Source: Idiomarina loihiensis (GTDB lineage Bacteria > Pseudomonadota > Gammaproteobacteria > Enterobacterales > Alteromonadaceae). Taken from it: a DNA stretch of 64,000 nt. This document shows positions 889-8,750 of this stretch, piece by piece (the stretch's first letter is position 1; the number at the start of each line of letters is the position of its first letter). Made by a program: the position numbers and the translations under genes. The DNA lies in assembly GCF_024584785.1 (NCBI RefSeq), contig NZ_CP074112.1, positions 620,001-684,000 on the forward strand, read 5' to 3'. The notes below the pieces were generated by a model. The model saw only the letters and a program-made list of their open reading frames with translations. It was not told the origin of the DNA and did not search any database.

Positions 889-1623
889 TTAAATATTGAG
901 CGCGCGACCGCCGTCTACTTTTATGGATTCGCCAGTAACATAGGGGTTATCGCGTAAAAAACGTACCGCCGCAAGCATGGGCTCAAGGCCTCCTTCAACT
1001 TTCAAAGGCGTTTGCGCTAATACTTTACGACGATGTTCTGAATCATGCTCGGGTAAAAATAAAATAGGCCCAGGCTGAATAGCATTGACTCGTATGTGCG
1101 GGGCTAAGTGCTTGGCGAATGCCTGCGTGAGGCTGGCTAAACCCGCTTTCGCCGCACAGTAAGCGATGTAGTCGGTGGCTGGGCTATCCACATAGATGTC
1201 GGTGATATTCAGCACCATAGCTTGCTGATTTTGGCTTTGTCGTAATAATGGTGCCAGTTCACGTATGAGCAAATAGGGCGCTGCCGTGTGTACATTTAAC
1301 ACCGCCGTTAAATGATCTAGCTGGTCATCCACAGTGGCGTTGTTGAAAAAGCACGACGCATTATTGACGAGCAAATCAAGTCGCTGGGTGTGTTGCTTAA
1401 GTTGCTCAGCTAACGCTAACACTTGGTTTAAGTCTGCTAAGTTGGCGGCCAAACCAACAGCTCCTAATTGTTCGAGCTCGGCAATACCGTCGCGCGAGGT
1501 ATGATAGTGGGCGAACACTTGGTAGCCCTCGGCTAGTAGTGCTTTGGCTAAGGTAAAACCAAAGCGCCGGCCGGCCCCGGTAATCAAAGCAACGGGTGCT
1601 TGAGGAGGAGAGTTAGCTGGCAT
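889..1623 (-). CDS. folM: FolM-like dihydromonapterin/pteridine reductase (SDR)
   Basis: A short-chain dehydrogenase of 244 residues. The TGAGRR nucleotide-binding motif near residue 14 is the TGxxRR form of pteridine reductases. The motif NITD stands where classical SDRs carry the catalytic serine, and YCAAK supplies the Tyr and Lys; the stretch ILFLPEHDSEHR also resembles E. coli FolM as I recall it. FolM reduces dihydromonapterin and, weakly, dihydrofolate. ATG 1623 was chosen because AAGGA lies about 7 nt upstream; an in-frame ATG at 1638 is the alternative. It overlaps the 3' end of folK by 11 nt, so the two are probably co-transcribed, which supports a pterin role. A general SDR function cannot be excluded. 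Confidence 0.75.
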   Translation of the reverse strand: MPANSPPQAPVALITGAGRRFGFTLAKALLAEGYQVFAHYHTSRDGIAELEQLGAVGLAANLADLNQVLALAEQLKQHTQRLDLLVNNASCFFNNATVDDQLDHLTAVLNVHTAAPYLLIRELAPLLRQSQNQQAMVLNITDIYVDSPATDYIAYCAAKAGLASLTQAFAKHLAPHIRVNAIQPGPILFLPEHDSEHRRKVLAQTPLKVEGGLEPMLAAVRFLRDNPYVTGESIKVDGGRALNI

Positions 1624-2044
1624 GGCGTTTTCCTTCATATAATTGCTGCCATTGGCGTTGTAAGTCTGGCACCACATCGGCTAGATAAGCCGGCACTTGT
1701 TGCCATACTTGCTGATGCGTTGCTGTGGTTGGTGCTTGCAGTTCACCTAATATATCTAAATCCATCGGCCGATCTTTATGGCTACAGTTTGGGTCGGTGC
1801 GGTCTCGACCTAAACTGGTTTCAATCGCATTAAACTGCTGCTTAAGTTGTTCGGGGTTATAACTGGTGCGTAATAGCAGCAACGCATTTAAGAATTCATG
1901 GTCGGTTTCAATCGCCACCGGCTGGGTATACAAGGCTGCCGAATACCAAGCCTCGCCTAGGGTGGTTAGCTGCTGCTTGGCTAATTTAAAATTCTGCTCA
2001 GGAGCTAAATTGGCCCCCATACTACAAAGATAGATTCGATTCAT
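1613..2044 (-). CDS. folK: 2-amino-4-hydroxy-6-hydroxymethyldihydropteridine pyrophosphokinase
   Basis: HPPK transfers pyrophosphate from ATP to 6-hydroxymethyl-7,8-dihydropterin in folate synthesis. The N-terminus has the family pattern (YLCSMGANL, near residue 5) and the signature RPMDLDIL, with the two metal-binding aspartates, lies near residue 95. At 143 residues it is a little shorter than the roughly 160 of E. coli FolK. ATG 2044 was chosen because the N-terminal beta strand starts there and AAGGAT lies 6-7 nt upstream; upstream extension of the frame lacks family similarity. It is the first gene of a folK-folM pair and diverges from the gene at 2140. Confidence 0.88.
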   Translation of the reverse strand: MNRIYLCSMGANLAPEQNFKLAKQQLTTLGEAWYSAALYTQPVAIETDHEFLNALLLLRTSYNPEQLKQQFNAIETSLGRDRTDPNCSHKDRPMDLDILGELQAPTTATHQQVWQQVPAYLADVVPDLQRQWQQLYEGKRHAS

Positions 2045-2139
2045 GCTAATCCTTACGTCACGATTGCTGTGAGCATACCCCAAGTTGCAATGATTTTCTG
2101 CACTTGCTAGCCTGTAACAAAGAGCTACGGGAAGGACGA

Positions 2140-2667
2140 GTGCCGCAACCAACAACCAAGCGCTTTATTATTGAGTTATTTTTCTCTATCACGCTGCTAG
2201 CGCTACTATTGTCGCTGATGCAGGCGGGACCCGCCAGTGCTAACTCCAAAGCTAGCCTGCTCGCTGAACCTAACGCCCTTGAGCTCACCAGTGTAGAGAT
2301 GAGCAAAGAAGGTTATTTTGTGTTGCGTAGTAATACCGCTCCTGCAGCCACAACCTGGCAGTTAGAGCGGTGGTCCGCAGCACCTACCGCTACCCAGTTA
2401 AACAACCAGCAACCGCTAACACTTTACCCTTGGCCGGCTAACACCCAACAACTGACCTTGTCTGGCTTTGCCAACGGCACTTACTATTTTCGCTTGCGAG
2501 CTAGCAATAACAACTACAGTAACGTGGTGAAGGTACAAGTAGATCACTATCCGTTATGGCAAGCCCTGAGCTTATTCAGCTTGGGATTAGGTCTGTTTGT
2601 GATAGTGGTGGTGGTGATTGCAAAGGGAGCCTATCGCTCCGCTAACGCTACCGAGGAGCCTTTATGA
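2140..2667 (+). CDS. Hypothetical membrane-anchored extracytoplasmic protein (beta-rich, FN3-like)
   Basis: I do not recognise a named family. The 175-residue product has an N-terminal signal or anchor (about residues 8-34, ending ASA), an extracytoplasmic segment of about 105 residues, and a C-terminal membrane helix (about 140-162, rich in V and I) followed by a short charged tail. The stretch ending GTYYFRLRASNN looks like the last strands of a fibronectin-type-III-like sandwich. GTG 2140 is favoured, with GGGAAGGA just upstream although the spacing is short; an in-frame TTG at 2104 is the alternative. Its stop overlaps the symporter start by 4 nt (ATGA), so the two are translationally coupled and the protein may assist that transporter. 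Confidence 0.6.
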   Translation: MPQPTTKRFIIELFFSITLLALLLSLMQAGPASANSKASLLAEPNALELTSVEMSKEGYFVLRSNTAPAATTWQLERWSAAPTATQLNNQQPLTLYPWPANTQQLTLSGFANGTYYFRLRASNNNYSNVVKVQVDHYPLWQALSLFSLGLGLFVIVVVVIAKGAYRSANATEEPL

Positions 2668-4088
2668 GCAGTGCCTATGCACTAACTCCGCAACTCGGCT
2701 TAACGCTGGTGGTGCTATTTGGTGCAGGTTGGATAGCTTTCGGCTATTGGTTGGGGCGCAGCAACCGTAGCCATGAAGATTTTGCCTTGGCTGGGCGACA
2801 AGTAGGGCTGGCCTTGGCTGCTGCTACCGCCATGGCTACTTGGGTGACCAGTAACACTACTCTGGTAGCACCGCAGTTAACCTATCAGTTTGGGGTGTGG
2901 GGCATGGTTGGCTATTCTTTTGCAGCGCTCGGCCTGTTGCTGTTTGCGCCCTTAGCAAAACGGATAAAGCAACTCATGCCCGGTGGTTATACCGCTGGTG
3001 ATTTTGTTCGCAGCCGCTACGGCAAACCGGCCTGGTATCTATTCTTAGTCATTTCTGCGGTTTATGCCCTTGCCTGGTTGGTCAGTTTGGGCATGGCCGG
3101 TGGCATCCTCCTGCAGGCACTCAGCGGTCTTGATTACCATCTGGGGATGACAGCTATTTTGGTGATCTGCGTCGGTTACACCCTGTTTGGCGGTTTTAAA
3201 GCGGTGATAGCTACAGATTTTGTGCAAGCAGTCATCATTATTATCGGTGTGGTGGTGGTAGCAGGGCTATTGCTAACCCAAGTGAGCGTTACGAGCGTGC
3301 ACGAACAGTTAACGCAGCAGCACCCGCAATTATTAGATCTGCTGTTCCCCGCAGCAATCATGTTTTTGTTTAATAATATTTTTTTCGGTTTGGGCGAGAT
3401 TTTTCACTCAAACGTGTGGTGGACACGGGCACTATCATTCAAGAGTCAGGTTGGCGCTAAGGCGTTCGTATTGGGTGGCTTGTTGTGGCTACCGATCCCC
3501 ATAGTCACCGGCTTTATTGCCTTAGCGGCGCCACAGCTCGGCATTTTCCCGCCATCGGCAGACATGGTTGGCCCAATGGTAGCAGCGGCAGTATTGGGCA
3601 AAGTAGGGGCCGTGGTGGTATTTGTGGTGGTCTTTTCAGCCCTGGCCTCGAGCTTAGACTCCTTGCTTGCCGCTAGCGCAGATTTACTTACTCGTGATGT
3701 CTATCAACAGCAACTGCGGCCACAAGCCAATGATCAGCAATTATTAAAGGTTAATCGCTACAGTATTGTGGCCTTGGGTATTTTAACTTGGCTGCTTTGC
3801 TTACCTCAGCTAGCTACGTTGGGAGCACTGCTTAATTTTGCTGGCGCTTTTGTTGCCAGCACCATCATGCCGATTATTCTAGGGCTATATCAACCCAAAT
3901 TAACGGGCAGCTACGCTACTGCGGCCATGCTACTTGGCACCTGTGCTGGTTTAGTAGGTTACCTGCTGATTGGTTTCTATGTAGCTGCGTTACTATCCTG
4001 TTTGATATCTAGCAGTATTTGTATGATTGGCGTGATACGCAGCCGCAGCCGATTTGATTGGCAGTTATTACAACAACGACAGGACTAA
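2664..4088 (+). CDS. Sodium:solute symporter (SSS) family transporter
   Basis: A 474-residue polytopic inner-membrane protein with about 12-13 hydrophobic segments. Features of the SSS (SLC5-like) fold include an N-terminal helix followed by FALAGRQVGLALAAATAMATWV, then GGYTAGDFVRSRYG near residue 111, GGFKAVIATDFVQA near 174, and a serine-rich ALASSLDSLLAASADL segment near 325 that corresponds to the conserved sodium-site region of the family. The substrate cannot be read from sequence; relatives take up amino acids, proline, pantothenate, acetate or urea. It overlaps the preceding gene by 4 nt and is followed after 6 nt by a 40-codon membrane peptide gene, then by a carbamoyltransferase and an amidotransferase, so a solute related to those enzymes is a reasonable guess. 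Confidence 0.85.
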   Translation: MSSAYALTPQLGLTLVVLFGAGWIAFGYWLGRSNRSHEDFALAGRQVGLALAAATAMATWVTSNTTLVAPQLTYQFGVWGMVGYSFAALGLLLFAPLAKRIKQLMPGGYTAGDFVRSRYGKPAWYLFLVISAVYALAWLVSLGMAGGILLQALSGLDYHLGMTAILVICVGYTLFGGFKAVIATDFVQAVIIIIGVVVVAGLLLTQVSVTSVHEQLTQQHPQLLDLLFPAAIMFLFNNIFFGLGEIFHSNVWWTRALSFKSQVGAKAFVLGGLLWLPIPIVTGFIALAAPQLGIFPPSADMVGPMVAAAVLGKVGAVVVFVVVFSALASSLDSLLAASADLLTRDVYQQQLRPQANDQQLLKVNRYSIVALGILTWLLCLPQLATLGALLNFAGAFVASTIMPIILGLYQPKLTGSYATAAMLLGTCAGLVGYLLIGFYVAALLSCLISSSICMIGVIRSRSRFDWQLLQQRQD

Positions 4089-4094
4089 AGCATC

Positions 4095-4217
4095 ATGTTG
4101 ATAAGCGCAGAATGGTTACAAGGACTCATTTTAAGTTGCTTGGTGTTAGCCGCCGTAGCGCCCCTAGTACTCTTGTTGCTGTGGGTGCGCGATTGGCGTC
4201 AGCAAGGCTTGTGGTAG
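4095..4217 (+). CDS. Small (40 aa) single-span membrane peptide downstream of SSS transporter
   Basis: An ATG-initiated frame of 40 codons, 6 nt after the symporter stop, with AGGA about 10 nt upstream. The peptide has one hydrophobic helix (about residues 10-30, leucine/valine/alanine rich) and a basic, tryptophan-containing C-terminus (WVRDWRQQGLW), as expected for a single-span protein with a cytoplasmic tail. Several SSS transporters are known to be encoded with a small partner protein (PanF with YhdT, ActP with YjcH), which makes a subunit or stabiliser role plausible. No similarity to those partners was recognised. The next gene starts 33 nt downstream. Confidence 0.6.
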   Translation: MLISAEWLQGLILSCLVLAAVAPLVLLLLWVRDWRQQGLW

Positions 4218-4250
4218 CCCCAGATTATCTTAAGTTAGGAAGCTAAATTT

Positions 4251-5315
4251 ATGAATACAAATGATATTTCGTTTGAACGTAAGCGGCCGGATGTGTACGG
4301 AGATGCTCATCCCAAGGCCTTGCTGAGGGCGATTCAAGAAGATGGCGATTATCTCTTGCAACTGGCCAACCAACATATAGTAGCGGGCGATCAGCTCGAT
4401 CAGAACACCATGAAGCAACTGTTTCGGCTAGCGGCTAAAATAGAAAGTAATCCGAAGCGGTTTAGCTCTCCTTTGCAAAATAAGATCTTGATTAGTGCCT
4501 TTTATGAGCCTAGTACTCGTACGCGGTTAAGCTTTGAAAGCGCTTGGCACCGATTAGGTGGCGATATCATGTCGATTACCGATCGTTCTACAACGGGTAT
4601 CGCCAAAGGTGAGGCTTTAGCAGACGTGGCCGAGATGTTTAATAACTACGGGGATTGTGTGGTGCTTAGAGATAACCAGCAATCGTCCTTGTATGAAATG
4701 ATGGATTCGCTGCGCATCCCCATTATTAACGCTGGCAATGGCTTAGATGAACATCCCACCCAAGCATTGGCTGATTTGTATGCCATCTTCAAGTGGCGCC
4801 CCGAGCTGTTGGATGCTAATTCGGGTGCCCAAATTAAGATCGGTGTGATTGGGGTTCCTAATAAAATGCGCACGGTGCGTAGTTTGCTTAAAGGCCTCTC
4901 CGTATTTGCCCATGCGGTGAGTGAGTTGGTGATTATTCATGATGCCGCCAGCAGCGCTGAGCTTTTTGCGCCGGGGCAACGAGAGCAATTATCGCAACGT
5001 GGCATCAAGGTGACCACGAGTACCGAGCTCAACGATTGTTTACCTAGTCTCGATGTGGTTTACATCAATGCTATCTCGTGGGAGGGCGATACTTTTCATA
5101 CCTACGGTGATGCTTTTCATTTACATGCTAAGTCGCCACTTAAAGCAGATGCGATTATTTTACATCCGTTAGCCCGCGGCGAAGAGCTTTCAACAGAGTT
5201 GGATCATACCCCGCACAATTGGTACTTTAGCCAAGCTCGAGGGGCGGTATTTTTACGTATGGCGTTGCTGACCTGTATGGTAGAGCGTGCTGAGCGAGTG
5301 ATTGATGTTGTCTAA
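4251..5315 (+). CDS. Aspartate/ornithine carbamoyltransferase superfamily enzyme, non-canonical acceptor site
   Basis: The 354-residue protein has the full carbamoyl-phosphate site of the ATCase/OTCase family: STRTR at 88-92, AKGE with Lys119, Arg140 (VLRD), and HPTQ at 168-171. The later part resembles PyrB (HPLARGEEL, then TPHNWYF). Aligned by eye to E. coli PyrB, Arg167 is kept as Arg207, but the region of Arg229/Gln231 (TRVQKER) reads NAISWEG, giving Ala274 and Ser276. In ATCase those two residues hold the beta-carboxylate of aspartate, so the acceptor here is probably an alpha-amino acid other than aspartate. The start at 4251 has AGGA upstream. A 15-nt gap to an asparagine-synthase-type gene points to a two-step pathway. 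It is unlikely to be housekeeping PyrB, and no pyrI lies nearby. Confidence 0.82.
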   Translation: MNTNDISFERKRPDVYGDAHPKALLRAIQEDGDYLLQLANQHIVAGDQLDQNTMKQLFRLAAKIESNPKRFSSPLQNKILISAFYEPSTRTRLSFESAWHRLGGDIMSITDRSTTGIAKGEALADVAEMFNNYGDCVVLRDNQQSSLYEMMDSLRIPIINAGNGLDEHPTQALADLYAIFKWRPELLDANSGAQIKIGVIGVPNKMRTVRSLLKGLSVFAHAVSELVIIHDAASSAELFAPGQREQLSQRGIKVTTSTELNDCLPSLDVVYINAISWEGDTFHTYGDAFHLHAKSPLKADAIILHPLARGEELSTELDHTPHNWYFSQARGAVFLRMALLTCMVERAERVIDVV

Positions 5316-5330
5316 CGCAAGGAGAGTTGT

Positions 5331-7343
5331 ATGTGTGGAATAGCCGGAATTTTTAATCAGCATGGCCAAGCACCACAGCCGCAAACCTTGGTCAATATGG
5401 CCGCCATCATGCACCATCGTGGTCCTGATGGCTTTGGTTACCAAATTTTAAAAGATACGGGCGTAGGTTTTAGCCATGCGCGGTTGTCTATTATCGACCT
5501 CAATGAACAGCGTGGGCGCCAGCCATTTGTCTCTACAGACGGTAACTTGCTATTAGCTCATAATGGTGAATTCTATGATTTTAAAAGAATTCGAGCGGAA
5601 TTAACTGCAGCAGGGGCTCGTTTTCAGAGTAAAAGTGATTCAGAAATTGTACTGCATCTCTACCAAGCCTATGGTTTAGCTGAAACGCTGACGCACTTGC
5701 GGGGCGAGTTTGCTTTTAGTTTGTACGATCAAACCGAAGATTGTCTCTATCTTGTGCGCGACCGCTTTGGCATCAAACCCTTGTATTACACCATGACAGA
5801 AACGGGTGTAGTGTTTGGATCTGAGTTAAAAGTGCTGTTTGCCCATCCTGAAGTAACTCGAGAGTTTTCCGACGAAGGCCTGTATCACCAGTTAATCCAA
5901 GTGATGGTGCCAGGCACTACGGCCTTTCAAGGGGTCTATCAAGTGCCTCCGGGGCATGTGGTAAAAATCAAACGACGCCATGGGCAACTGGATATTTCTT
6001 CGCACTGCTATTGGGATGTGAATTTTCCGCTAGAGAGTGATTATCCGGGCGCTGAGGTGAACGAACAAGAATACATTGATGGGGTTCGCAAGCACTTGCT
6101 CGAGGCGGTTCAGCATCGTTTAACGGCAGATGTGCCGGTGGGATGCTATTTGTCGGGCGGGATTGATAGCTGTGCTATTTTAGGCTTATCAGCAGCCGCC
6201 AGTCAGCATCCGATCAAGGCTTTTACCATTGGGTTTGACGCCGACGCTTACGATGAAACGCCTATTGCCGAAGAAATGGCCGCCGCCACCGGTGCCGAAC
6301 ATCATATTATGCGGCTAAATAGCGATGATTTGTATGACCATTTTGTCGCCACCATCTGGCATACCGAACGAACCATTTATAACACCCTTGGGGTGGCTAA
6401 GTACCTTATGAGCCAGCAAGTTAATCAGGTGGGCTATAAGGTGGTGTTAACAGGTGAGGGCTCTGATGAGTTGTTTGCCGGCTATCCTGCGTTTCGTAAG
6501 GATATGTTCTTGCACGGGCTCGATCACCTCCCTGAGTCGGAGCGGCAAGCCTGGCAGCAGTTGTTAGAGAAAAATAATCAACTCTTTAAAGGCGCCATGT
6601 TAGCGCGTGAAGAATTCATTAGCCCAGCCTTCAACGCTAAAATGGGCTTTACTCCGAGTTGTGTGCAGCCTTGGTTGAGTTGTGGTGAACAAGCTTTGCC
6701 ATTAATTGCGGCAGCTAGAAGGCAGCATTTAGAAGATTATGATGCTGGTAAAGCTATTGCTGAGACCTTAGATGAAACCATGTTACAAGGTCGTCATCCA
6801 CTGGATAGAGCACAATATGTGTGGATCAAGACCATGTTAGAAGGGCAAATTTTAACTTGGGGCGGAGACCGAGTTGATATGGCTCACTCGATGGAAGCAC
6901 GGCCAGCGTTCTTAGACCATCATTTGGCGGAGTATGCATTCAAGGTACCGCCGCACTTGCGTATCAAAGGCAATAAAGAAAAGTATGTGTTGCGTGAAGC
7001 AATGAAGGGACTCTTGCCCGAGGTATTGTATAAGCGCGAGAAATTTGCCTTTATGGCGCCGCCGGCGCACACAGATCCAGCTAAATGGCAGGCGGTATTA
7101 AAGCTGGCGCAGCACTATTTATCAGCTGAAGCTATTGCGGAAGCGGGGTTACTGGATTATCAACAGGTACAAGAAGTGTTTCAGCGACACGAATCAGAGC
7201 AGGTGCCTATCGATGAAAAAGTACAGTTAGATGCCCTTATTAATCATCTGCTCGGGGTGCAGATCATGCATCATCACTTTATAAAAACTGATGTGCCAGC
7301 CCTAGCTCAGCAACGGGCAGATGAGCTAGGCTGGCATGCTTAA
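5331..7343 (+). CDS. Asparagine-synthase-type glutamine-dependent amidotransferase
   Basis: A 670-residue protein beginning MCGIAG, with Cys2 as the N-terminal nucleophile of a class II glutaminase domain (about 2-215; RGPDG, SHARLSIID and SDSEIVLHLY are visible). A synthetase domain follows, with the ATP-pyrophosphatase loop SGGIDS at 275-280 and GEGSDELFAGY near 377. It activates a carboxylate with ATP and amidates it with ammonia from glutamine. It is longer than E. coli AsnB (554) and closer in size to AsnB-like enzymes that act on special substrates. AAGGAGAG precedes the start, 15 nt after the carbamoyltransferase, so the two are surely co-transcribed. The substrate is unknown; plain asparagine synthesis is the conservative call, and amidation of the carbamoyltransferase product is my inference. 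Confidence 0.85.
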   Translation: MCGIAGIFNQHGQAPQPQTLVNMAAIMHHRGPDGFGYQILKDTGVGFSHARLSIIDLNEQRGRQPFVSTDGNLLLAHNGEFYDFKRIRAELTAAGARFQSKSDSEIVLHLYQAYGLAETLTHLRGEFAFSLYDQTEDCLYLVRDRFGIKPLYYTMTETGVVFGSELKVLFAHPEVTREFSDEGLYHQLIQVMVPGTTAFQGVYQVPPGHVVKIKRRHGQLDISSHCYWDVNFPLESDYPGAEVNEQEYIDGVRKHLLEAVQHRLTADVPVGCYLSGGIDSCAILGLSAAASQHPIKAFTIGFDADAYDETPIAEEMAAATGAEHHIMRLNSDDLYDHFVATIWHTERTIYNTLGVAKYLMSQQVNQVGYKVVLTGEGSDELFAGYPAFRKDMFLHGLDHLPESERQAWQQLLEKNNQLFKGAMLAREEFISPAFNAKMGFTPSCVQPWLSCGEQALPLIAAARRQHLEDYDAGKAIAETLDETMLQGRHPLDRAQYVWIKTMLEGQILTWGGDRVDMAHSMEARPAFLDHHLAEYAFKVPPHLRIKGNKEKYVLREAMKGLLPEVLYKREKFAFMAPPAHTDPAKWQAVLKLAQHYLSAEAIAEAGLLDYQQVQEVFQRHESEQVPIDEKVQLDALINHLLGVQIMHHHFIKTDVPALAQQRADELGWHA

Positions 7344-7352
7344 GCAGTTAGG

Positions 7353-8750
7353 TTAGCGTACCAGCTGCAGCAATGCTTGAGCTAACTCGGTGTTGTCTAA
7401 ATAGCCACGGAAGGCATCGGCACCAGGGCCGGTTGCCATCACCGGAACATCAACCGCGGTGTGACCGGTGGTGGTCCAGCCGGTGCGAGTGTGTTCGCTA
7501 ATGATTTGCACCAATACCTTACCTAGCGGATATTGCCGATCGCGGCCACGCAATGAGTCGTCAATCTGCACTTGCTCTAGCTGCTGCCATTGTTGTTCCG
7601 TTACCGGTAAGTTCAGGATTGGGGCTAGATAATCGCGCCATTGCTCACGCGGTAGTTGCAATAATTGTTTGGTCATTTGCTCTAACGAAGCAGTAATGCC
7701 CATAACCTGTTCTGAATGCCACGCGTATTCACCGCCTTGGCCTAGGGTTAAACCACCGGTTGAATGGTCGGCAGTAATCACTAATAGGGTATTTGGGTGC
7801 TGCGCCAGGTACTCACGAACAACCTCTACTGCGGCAGCAAAATCGGCCATCTCATGCACCGCACAAGCGATATCGTTGGCATGCCCACACCAGTCGATCA
7901 TGCTGCCTTCTACCATCAAGGCAAACGGCTTGTTGGTTTGCTGGCTTTGCTCGGTGAGTAAGCGTAAGGCTTGGCTGGTCATGTGAGCAAGGCGGCCAGG
8001 CTTATCATCGATGGCGAAAGGTAAGGCTTTGTCAGCAAACAAGCCTAATACCGGCAGTTGCTGTTGTTGATCCAGTTCAGAGGCATCGGTAAGGATACTC
8101 AAACCTTGCTGCTGCAACTGCGGCAGCCAGTTTTTATCATCCCGATGAAAATACTGATAGCCGCCACCTAACAACACATCAAAGCTCCAGCCACCGTTGG
8201 TGACTTGGCTGGCATAGCTATCGGCAATCTCGTTATATTGATTTCGTGAAGGGTGATGGGTAAAAAAGCTTGCTGGTGTGGCATGGTTGACTTGAACGGT
8301 AGCGACAGCACCTGTGCCCCAGCCATGTTCACGAGCTTTTTCCATCAGCGTTTGTTGTGGATTTTTTTGCGCATCAATCCCAATCGCACCATTGTAGCTT
8401 TTCACACCTGTAGCAAGGGCAGTTGCGCTGGCAGCTGAGTCGGTTACCCAAGTATCGTCATCAGGATAGGTGGTTGCGGCGCCGGTTAACAGATCATCAA
8501 AAGGAGTTGCTGCTAGCTCGCCGGCACCAAGTTCACTCATGGCATAGCGATAGGCTGAAATGTATTCAAACCCCATACCGTCACCAATCATGAAAATAAT
8601 ATTAGGTGCACCGGAGCTTGTAGCCGTTACATTAGCTGCTGCGCTATTGCCGTCAGTTGCTGGCTGGTTAGCACATGCGCTGAGTACCAGGGCGGCGGCA
8701 ATACTACTGGCAAGGCGACCAAATTTAACCGCGGGGGCCGAAAACTTCAT
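7353..8750 (-). CDS. phoA: Alkaline phosphatase, PhoA family, lipoprotein
   Basis: A 465-residue phosphomonoesterase. The metal- and phosphate-site motifs are in order: MIGDGMG (Asp ligand, near 55), VTDSAASATA with the nucleophile serine (near 105), MIDWCGHAND (Asp and His ligands, near 280), ITADHSTGG (Asp-His, near 323), and a C-terminal TTGHTAVDVPV histidine. The N-terminus has a lipobox LSAC with Cys26 and Ala at +2, predicting outer-membrane anchoring instead of free periplasmic export. AGGAG lies upstream of ATG 8750. A strong Pho box is found 52-69 nt upstream of the start, so the gene should be induced by phosphate starvation through PhoB. It is convergent with the amidotransferase gene, 9 nt away. 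Confidence 0.93.
   Translation of the reverse strand: MKFSAPAVKFGRLASSIAAALVLSACANQPATDGNSAAANVTATSSGAPNIIFMIGDGMGFEYISAYRYAMSELGAGELAATPFDDLLTGAATTYPDDDTWVTDSAASATALATGVKSYNGAIGIDAQKNPQQTLMEKAREHGWGTGAVATVQVNHATPASFFTHHPSRNQYNEIADSYASQVTNGGWSFDVLLGGGYQYFHRDDKNWLPQLQQQGLSILTDASELDQQQQLPVLGLFADKALPFAIDDKPGRLAHMTSQALRLLTEQSQQTNKPFALMVEGSMIDWCGHANDIACAVHEMADFAAAVEVVREYLAQHPNTLLVITADHSTGGLTLGQGGEYAWHSEQVMGITASLEQMTKQLLQLPREQWRDYLAPILNLPVTEQQWQQLEQVQIDDSLRGRDRQYPLGKVLVQIISEHTRTGWTTTGHTAVDVPVMATGPGADAFRGYLDNTELAQALLQLVR

Follow-up and report, generated by a model that had tools for sequence, protein, structure and literature searches.

Five adjacent genes of Idiomarina loihiensis probably form a compatible-solute operon, a reading to which we give a probability of about 0.62; the operon would make carbamoylglutamine amide (CGA, N-alpha-carbamoyl-L-glutamine 1-amide) from glutamine and recapture it through an SSS-family symporter. 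The genes lie in a stretch of 64,000 nucleotides (RefSeq assembly GCF_024584785.1, contig NZ_CP074112.1, positions 620,001 to 684,000), hereafter the window, which belongs to a genome of 2.9 Mb in one contig. In order, they encode an anchored protein (P1), the symporter, a small membrane peptide (P3), a carbamoyltransferase (CT, or P0004) and an AsnB-type amidotransferase (P0005). An earlier note on this DNA, made from the letters alone, had proposed such an operon for a carbamoylated amino acid amide, possibly CGA, and three lines of evidence now support it: the altered acceptor pocket of the CT, the presence of the CT-AsnB pair in genomes of Ectothiorhodospira, one of which fits a known CGA producer, and hydrolases of matching type beside the block in other carriers. 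From these we infer the product, the amino acid and the osmotic role.

As proposed here, the CT would join glutamine and carbamoyl phosphate to give N-carbamoyl-glutamine, which the AsnB-type enzyme, consuming ATP and glutamine, would convert to CGA, the 1-amide. The symporter, together with P3 and perhaps P1, would recapture leaked solute, and the amidase and/or carbamoylase found in other carriers would, judging by their families, reverse the synthesis.

The carbamoyltransferase and its acceptor pocket

Both domains of the carbamoyltransferase superfamily are recognized in the CT (PF02729, 134.1 bits; PF00185, 44.2 bits), which nonetheless scores too low for each of the 17 NCBIfam models touched, including those for PyrB (TIGR00670, 200.5 versus 236.95) and ArgF (TIGR00658, 92.3 versus 280.85). 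It is one of three genes with an OTCace_N domain in its genome, the other two being PyrB-like (348 amino acids) and ArgF-like (302 amino acids) by length and motif, and it is 32% identical to the former and 27% to the latter. The sequence D-x-W-x-S-M-G, the ornithine carbamoyltransferase motif, is present in the ArgF-like protein and absent from the CT. By its sequence, then, the CT is neither PyrB nor ArgF.

An alignment of 110 CT sequences shows which parts of the active site are retained. The carbamoyl-phosphate site STRT is present in 109 (with one gap), the HPxQ residues H168 and Q171 in all 110, and K119, R140 and R207 are likewise invariant; R207 aligns with PyrB R167, the arginine that holds the alpha-carboxylate. 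The aspartate side-chain carboxylate is bound in Escherichia coli PyrB by R229 and Q231. In almost all of the 110 sequences this region reads N-(A/S)-I-(A/S)-W. PyrB residues T228, R229, Q231 and K232 correspond in the CT to N273, alanine or serine, alanine or serine, and W277, with N273 and W277 found in every sequence, position 274 occupied by A in 90, S in 19 and T in 1, and position 276 by A in 72, S in 36, V in 1 and T in 1. Because the side-chain carboxylate binders are replaced while R207 is kept, the expected acceptor has a free alpha-carboxylate and lacks a side-chain carboxylate, a description that glutamine fits, although the pocket does not single it out. The use of aspartate or ornithine, which the earlier note had named as fatal to its proposal, is thus opposed by the pocket residues in both cases; the choice of glutamine itself goes a step beyond them, and we propose the CT as a putative L-glutamine N-alpha-carbamoyltransferase. 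The predicted structure (predicted local distance difference test [pLDDT] score of 83) has aspartate transcarbamoylases throughout its 50 best listed matches.

The amidotransferase

Among the models examined, P0005 exceeds only the cut-off of TIGR01536, asparagine synthase (450.9 versus 267.1), a match that does not decide its acceptor. It remains under those for the XrtA-system amidotransferase (TIGR03108, 414.7 versus 816.9), for the amidotransferase of N-acetylglutaminylglutamine amide (NAGGN) synthesis (TIGR03104, 324.9 versus 570.1) and for AsnB proper (PRK09431, 286.5 versus 499). Cys2 and the SGGIDS and GEGSDE motifs are nearly or fully invariant among its relatives, and its predicted model has a pLDDT of 81. 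We propose that P0005 amidates the alpha-carboxylate of N-carbamoyl-glutamine. The same genome holds a second protein with an Asn_synthase domain (a 653-amino-acid open reading frame [ORF]; G000:C1:1787042-1788130, locus L086).

Conservation of the block

A scan with P0004 returned 187 relatives, of which the best 80 were kept. These 80 named loci, together with 19 from a sample of the class (outside a phototrophic genus considered below) and 10 from that genus, make up the 109 loci compared; 80 of the 109 were therefore chosen by similarity to the window's own CT, and the neighbour counts that follow are raw counts. An evenly drawn class sample of 369 genomes contributed 21 of the 109 loci, and a further 8 were taken from the one genus. 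Carriers among the best 80 of 187 include Idiomarinaceae, Kangiella, Pleionea, Aliikangiella, Bowmanella, Alteromonas and Pseudoalteromonas, as well as Nitrosomonas halophila, Kordiimonas, Hyphomicrobiales and others, and the block is kept across gamma-, beta- and alphaproteobacteria. The CT is present in 23/369 genomes of the class sample (counting the window's own), in 38/246 genomes of the family and in 9/11 listed members of the window's own genus.

AsnB adjoins the CT in 106/109 loci, and in the other three (L056, L123 and L172) the sequence stops 634, 664 and 2 bases after the CT, with the AsnB start visible in two of them. The symporter gene is found in 97/109 loci, and all 97 of these have a P3-like membrane ORF. 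Blind clustering of neighbouring ORFs yielded eight clusters that recur in at least 20 genus groups: CT, AsnB, the symporter, a carbamoylase, P1 (seen in 38 genus groups), an amidase, and two represented by ORFs that run antisense within AsnB and the symporter gene. This conserved gene order over many genera confirms that the block is real. A tree of 62 CT rows includes 25 whose loci have both hydrolases (carbamoylase and amidase), and 24 of these group together (100/100). Tree and neighbouring genes alike place the window's genome in Pseudidiomarina or close to it.

Several further candidates were rejected. The MscS mechanosensitive channel, whose gene follows the pair in 5/10 Ectothiorhodospira loci (two of them weak matches, 80 to 84 bits) and in L113, and is reversed in L058, occurs in too few genera to count as a partner, as do the MarR genes near L044 and L077. 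The ORF at 3451-4590 of L069, considered as a channel, is nearest to AI-2E/YtvI-like families and below their cut-off. A search for spread of the block on plasmids gave no match at an E value of 1e-60.

The pair in Ectothiorhodospira, the genus of a known producer

Photosynthetic reaction-centre genes accompany the CT in 2/22 class carriers, which share one genus, and genome G375 encodes a high-potential iron-sulfur protein (HiPIP) that matches PDB entry 1hpi, the HiPIP of Ectothiorhodospira vacuolata, with full identity over 71 residues; the phototrophic genus is Ectothiorhodospira. All 10 of its genomes carry the CT, with AsnB adjacent in each. The G+C content of one genome, G322, is 68.8% and 67.0% in two stretches, compared with 68.2% given for E. 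marismortui DSM 4180 in the species rows of PMC8877833, and that of G373 is 68.5% in one stretch, compared with 68.3% for E. mobilis DSM 237 in the same rows; the other eight genomes range from 55.2 to 65.1% in the examined stretches. G322 fits E. marismortui, the species to which a passage of PMC1224877, citing Galinski and Oren 1991, ascribes CGA as an osmolyte; the chemical description of CGA dates from that year, as cited there. The earlier note had named one outcome that would undo its proposal, namely that producing strains of Ectothiorhodospira lack the pair; the pair is in 10/10 genomes of the genus, including the one that fits E. marismortui.

In G322 (locus L114), the carbamoylase (10262-9006), amidase (9009-8275), CT (8218-7151) and AsnB (7103-5091) genes follow one another on one strand, the first two overlapping by 4 nucleotides. 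The surroundings of the Ectothiorhodospira loci are themselves distinctive: upstream of the carbamoylase, 10/10 (L112, L114 and L163-L170) have a divergently oriented gene for sucrose synthase, and 9/10 have one for a PfkB-type kinase towards the opposite end, the two perhaps representing a second osmolyte or sugar module. One carrier grouped with this genus, G106 (L112), is a single-contig 2.0-Mb phototroph with a local G+C content of 55.2%, in both respects below the Ectothiorhodospira species rows of PMC8877833.

Hydrolases beside the block in other carriers

Outside the Idiomarinaceae, a gene for a carbamoylase, or N-carbamoyl-L-amino-acid hydrolase, lies near the block in 67/73 loci (39/44 named, 18/19 from the class sample and 10/10 Ectothiorhodospira), and an isochorismatase-fold amidase gene in 29/73 (1 named, 18 class and 10 Ectothiorhodospira). 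The six carbamoylases that were scanned pass TIGR01879, the hydantoinase/carbamoylase model, and the four amidases scanned are nearest to biuret amidohydrolase, far under its cut-off (61 to 84 versus 370). Going by family, an amidase and a carbamoylase are together the activities expected to undo an N-carbamoyl amino acid amide. The window contains no match to either enzyme.

Parts and surroundings of the block

The five ORFs (Table 1) are separated by gaps of -4, 6, 33 and 15 nucleotides, and their number, spacing and families are all as the earlier note had described.

Table 1. Genes of the block and their immediate neighbours in the window
Feature	Position	Strand	Remarks
P1, 175-amino-acid anchored protein	2140..2667	+	GTG start at 2140
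SSS-family sodium:solute symporter	2664..4088	+	PF00474 (SSF)
P3, 40-amino-acid one-helix membrane peptide	4095..4217	+	Between the symporter and the CT
CT (P0004), carbamoyltransferase	4251..5315	+	PF02729 (OTCace_N) and PF00185 (OTCace)
AsnB-type glutamine-dependent amidotransferase (P0005)	5331..7343	+	PF00733 (Asn_synthase), 312.3 bits, and GATase domains
Pteridine-reductase-like (dihydromonapterin) gene	889-1677	-	Short-chain dehydrogenase/reductase, upstream of the block
folK-like gene	1613-2155	-	Upstream of the block
Alkaline phosphatase gene	7353-8750	-	PF00245; directly downstream of AsnB

The symporter meets PF00474 with 111.1 bits against a gathering score of 22.8; it lies below the superfamily cut-off TIGR00813 (148.3 versus 184) and reaches no substrate-specific NCBIfam cut-off. 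P3 matches no Pfam or NCBIfam model, and its relatives form a conserved small family in which an Asp and a C-terminal Trp are present in all aligned sequences and a Pro in 97%, making it a candidate small subunit of the symporter. P1 has one hydrophobic stretch at its N terminus and another at its C terminus by hydropathy, and neither the whole protein nor its middle region is above the cut-off of any Pfam or NCBIfam family; it is probably periplasmic and membrane anchored, as the hydropathy suggests, and is perhaps accessory to the symporter. Scans for promoters (6 versus 7.3 in shuffled sequence) and terminators (8 versus 6.1, standard deviation 2.0) gave no signal.

The folK-like and reductase genes overlap slightly and are neighbours of the block in loci of Pseudidiomarina and Idiomarina, not in those of Aliidiomarina. 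The alkaline phosphatase was rejected as a member of the block, as it adjoins it in only 15/80 named loci (14 Pseudidiomarina and L059, a metagenome-assembled genome [MAG]).

Evidence against the operon and alternative readings

A number of observations weigh against a CGA operon in Idiomarina. Neither hydrolase lies near any of the 36 loci of Idiomarinaceae type (35 that bear such names, plus MAG L059), and a carbamoylase was sought throughout the window's genome without a hit (the search had no positive control, and the amidase was sought in the window only). The six scanned carbamoylases pass NF006771, a subfamily model that bears the name allantoate amidohydrolase (484 to 539 versus 399), and miss the N-carbamyl-L-glutamate amidohydrolase model ErtE (354 to 399 versus 520). 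Hydrolase genes that share the strand of the synthesis genes are as compatible with turnover of the solute as with its accumulation. The window's CT is 61% identical to that of G322 and falls outside its clade, the clade of rows with both hydrolases, and no symporter gene is present in the examined stretches of the 10 Ectothiorhodospira loci. The NCBIfam model that P0005 passes is an equivalog for asparagine synthase. Finally, avoidance of ectoine synthase by carriers was tried as evidence and rejected as not significant (1/28 carriers, that is, 31 less G033, G312 and G337, with a class background of 56/369, of which 52 are over the cut-off, and 2/23 class carriers, G127 and G337), and this absence of avoidance itself belongs among the opposing points.

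The same two-step chemistry might instead act in this lineage on another acceptor, such as asparagine or a different neutral amino acid, to give an analogue of CGA. The pocket rules out a side-chain carboxylate better than it selects glutamine, and the divergence of the window's CT from the Ectothiorhodospira clade points the same way. However, when the 29 class-sample and Ectothiorhodospira sequences are compared with the other 81, no position from 80 to 344 has one residue fixed at 85% in the first group and a different one in the second, and we regard a different acceptor as unlikely.

A second possibility is that the N-carbamoyl amino acid amide is made as a nitrogen store, a signal or some other metabolite, with the hydrolases freeing its nitrogen. 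CGA is nitrogen rich by formula, and the hydrolase genes share the strand of the block, those for carbamoylase and amidase overlapping in L114. Yet PMC1224877, in the passage cited above, describes the compound as an osmolyte of E. marismortui, the NAGGN osmolyte operon likewise contains a hydrolase, and the named cultured carriers are mostly marine or halophilic, judged by name; we consider a nonosmotic role improbable.

We think it very unlikely that the block is instead a catabolic operon for ureides or carbamoyl compounds, in which the symporter would import the substrate, the hydrolases degrade it and the CT run in reverse to yield carbamoyl phosphate. The allantoate amidohydrolase model and the distant resemblance of the amidases to biuret amidohydrolase lean towards such a role, but the steadiest partner of the CT is an ATP-consuming AsnB-type enzyme, and the two persist in the loci where the symporter (12/109) or the carbamoylase (42/109) is missing. 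Hardly credible is a housekeeping reading, with an asparagine synthetase and a further aspartate carbamoyltransferase standing side by side by accident, since, for all that P0005 passes TIGR01536 and the CT is nearest to aspartate carbamoyltransferases in sequence and model, the CT misses every carbamoyltransferase cut-off it touches and has no site for the side chain of aspartate, PyrB-like and ArgF-like genes exist elsewhere in the genome, and the block is conserved in three groups of proteobacteria.

Significance and comparison with known systems

Genes for osmotic adaptation in phototrophs were surveyed in 2020 (PMC7824335), and CGA is named there, in the sections consulted, only as a possible solute. 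CGA came up in PMC7824335, PMC1224877 and PMC3857566, and no gene assignment for it turned up in the full-text literature searched, a scope that leaves most subscription journals outside it; the earlier note likewise knew of no established gene set for CGA. We lean, somewhat beyond even odds, towards the view that the block supplies the genes so far lacking for CGA synthesis, comprising a new type of enzyme, a glutamine N-alpha-carbamoyltransferase with the fold of aspartate carbamoyltransferase, a dedicated amidotransferase, a symporter with its 40-amino-acid partner and, often, matched hydrolases, and that CGA, known from a single purple sulfur bacterium, has many producers among marine and halophilic Proteobacteria. 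If so, this solute gains its genes, the aspartate carbamoyltransferase family gains a substrate specificity, an "asparagine synthase" label is corrected, and CGA is predicted in Idiomarina, Pseudidiomarina, Kangiella, Pleionea, some Alteromonas and Pseudoalteromonas, Nitrosomonas halophila and Kordiimonas.

The block resembles known systems in parts. N-alpha-carbamoylation followed by 1-amidation, which the CT and AsnB could carry out, would produce exactly the compound of E. marismortui, which is known there as a compound, its genes being unnamed in the consulted parts of PMC7824335 and PMC1224877. With PyrB, the CT shares its fold, the carbamoyl-phosphate site and the alpha-carboxylate arginine, whereas it is about 30% identical, has the aspartate side-chain residues replaced and scores under TIGR00670. 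P0005 has the domain order and catalytic motifs of asparagine synthetase B and of the XrtA-system amidotransferase but stays under the cut-offs of both PRK09431 and TIGR03108.

In layout the block comes closest to the NAGGN operon, a parallel that the earlier note had also drawn. As described in PMC8070244, PA3459-PA3461 of Pseudomonas aeruginosa encode an AsnB-type enzyme (asnO), an acetyltransferase (ngg) and an aminopeptidase. NAGGN synthesis, like the proposed pathway, pairs AsnB-type amidation at an alpha-carboxylate with capping of the alpha-amino group by another enzyme; a hydrolase shares the operon, and the osmolyte would in each case be an uncharged derivative of glutamine. They differ in the cap, which in NAGGN is that of an acetyl-dipeptide made by Ngg and here would be a carbamoyl group added by a carbamoyltransferase; the five genes and their immediate neighbours, to which the search for an Ngg gene was confined, belong to other families. 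They differ also in that the block of the window adds a symporter with its candidate small subunit.

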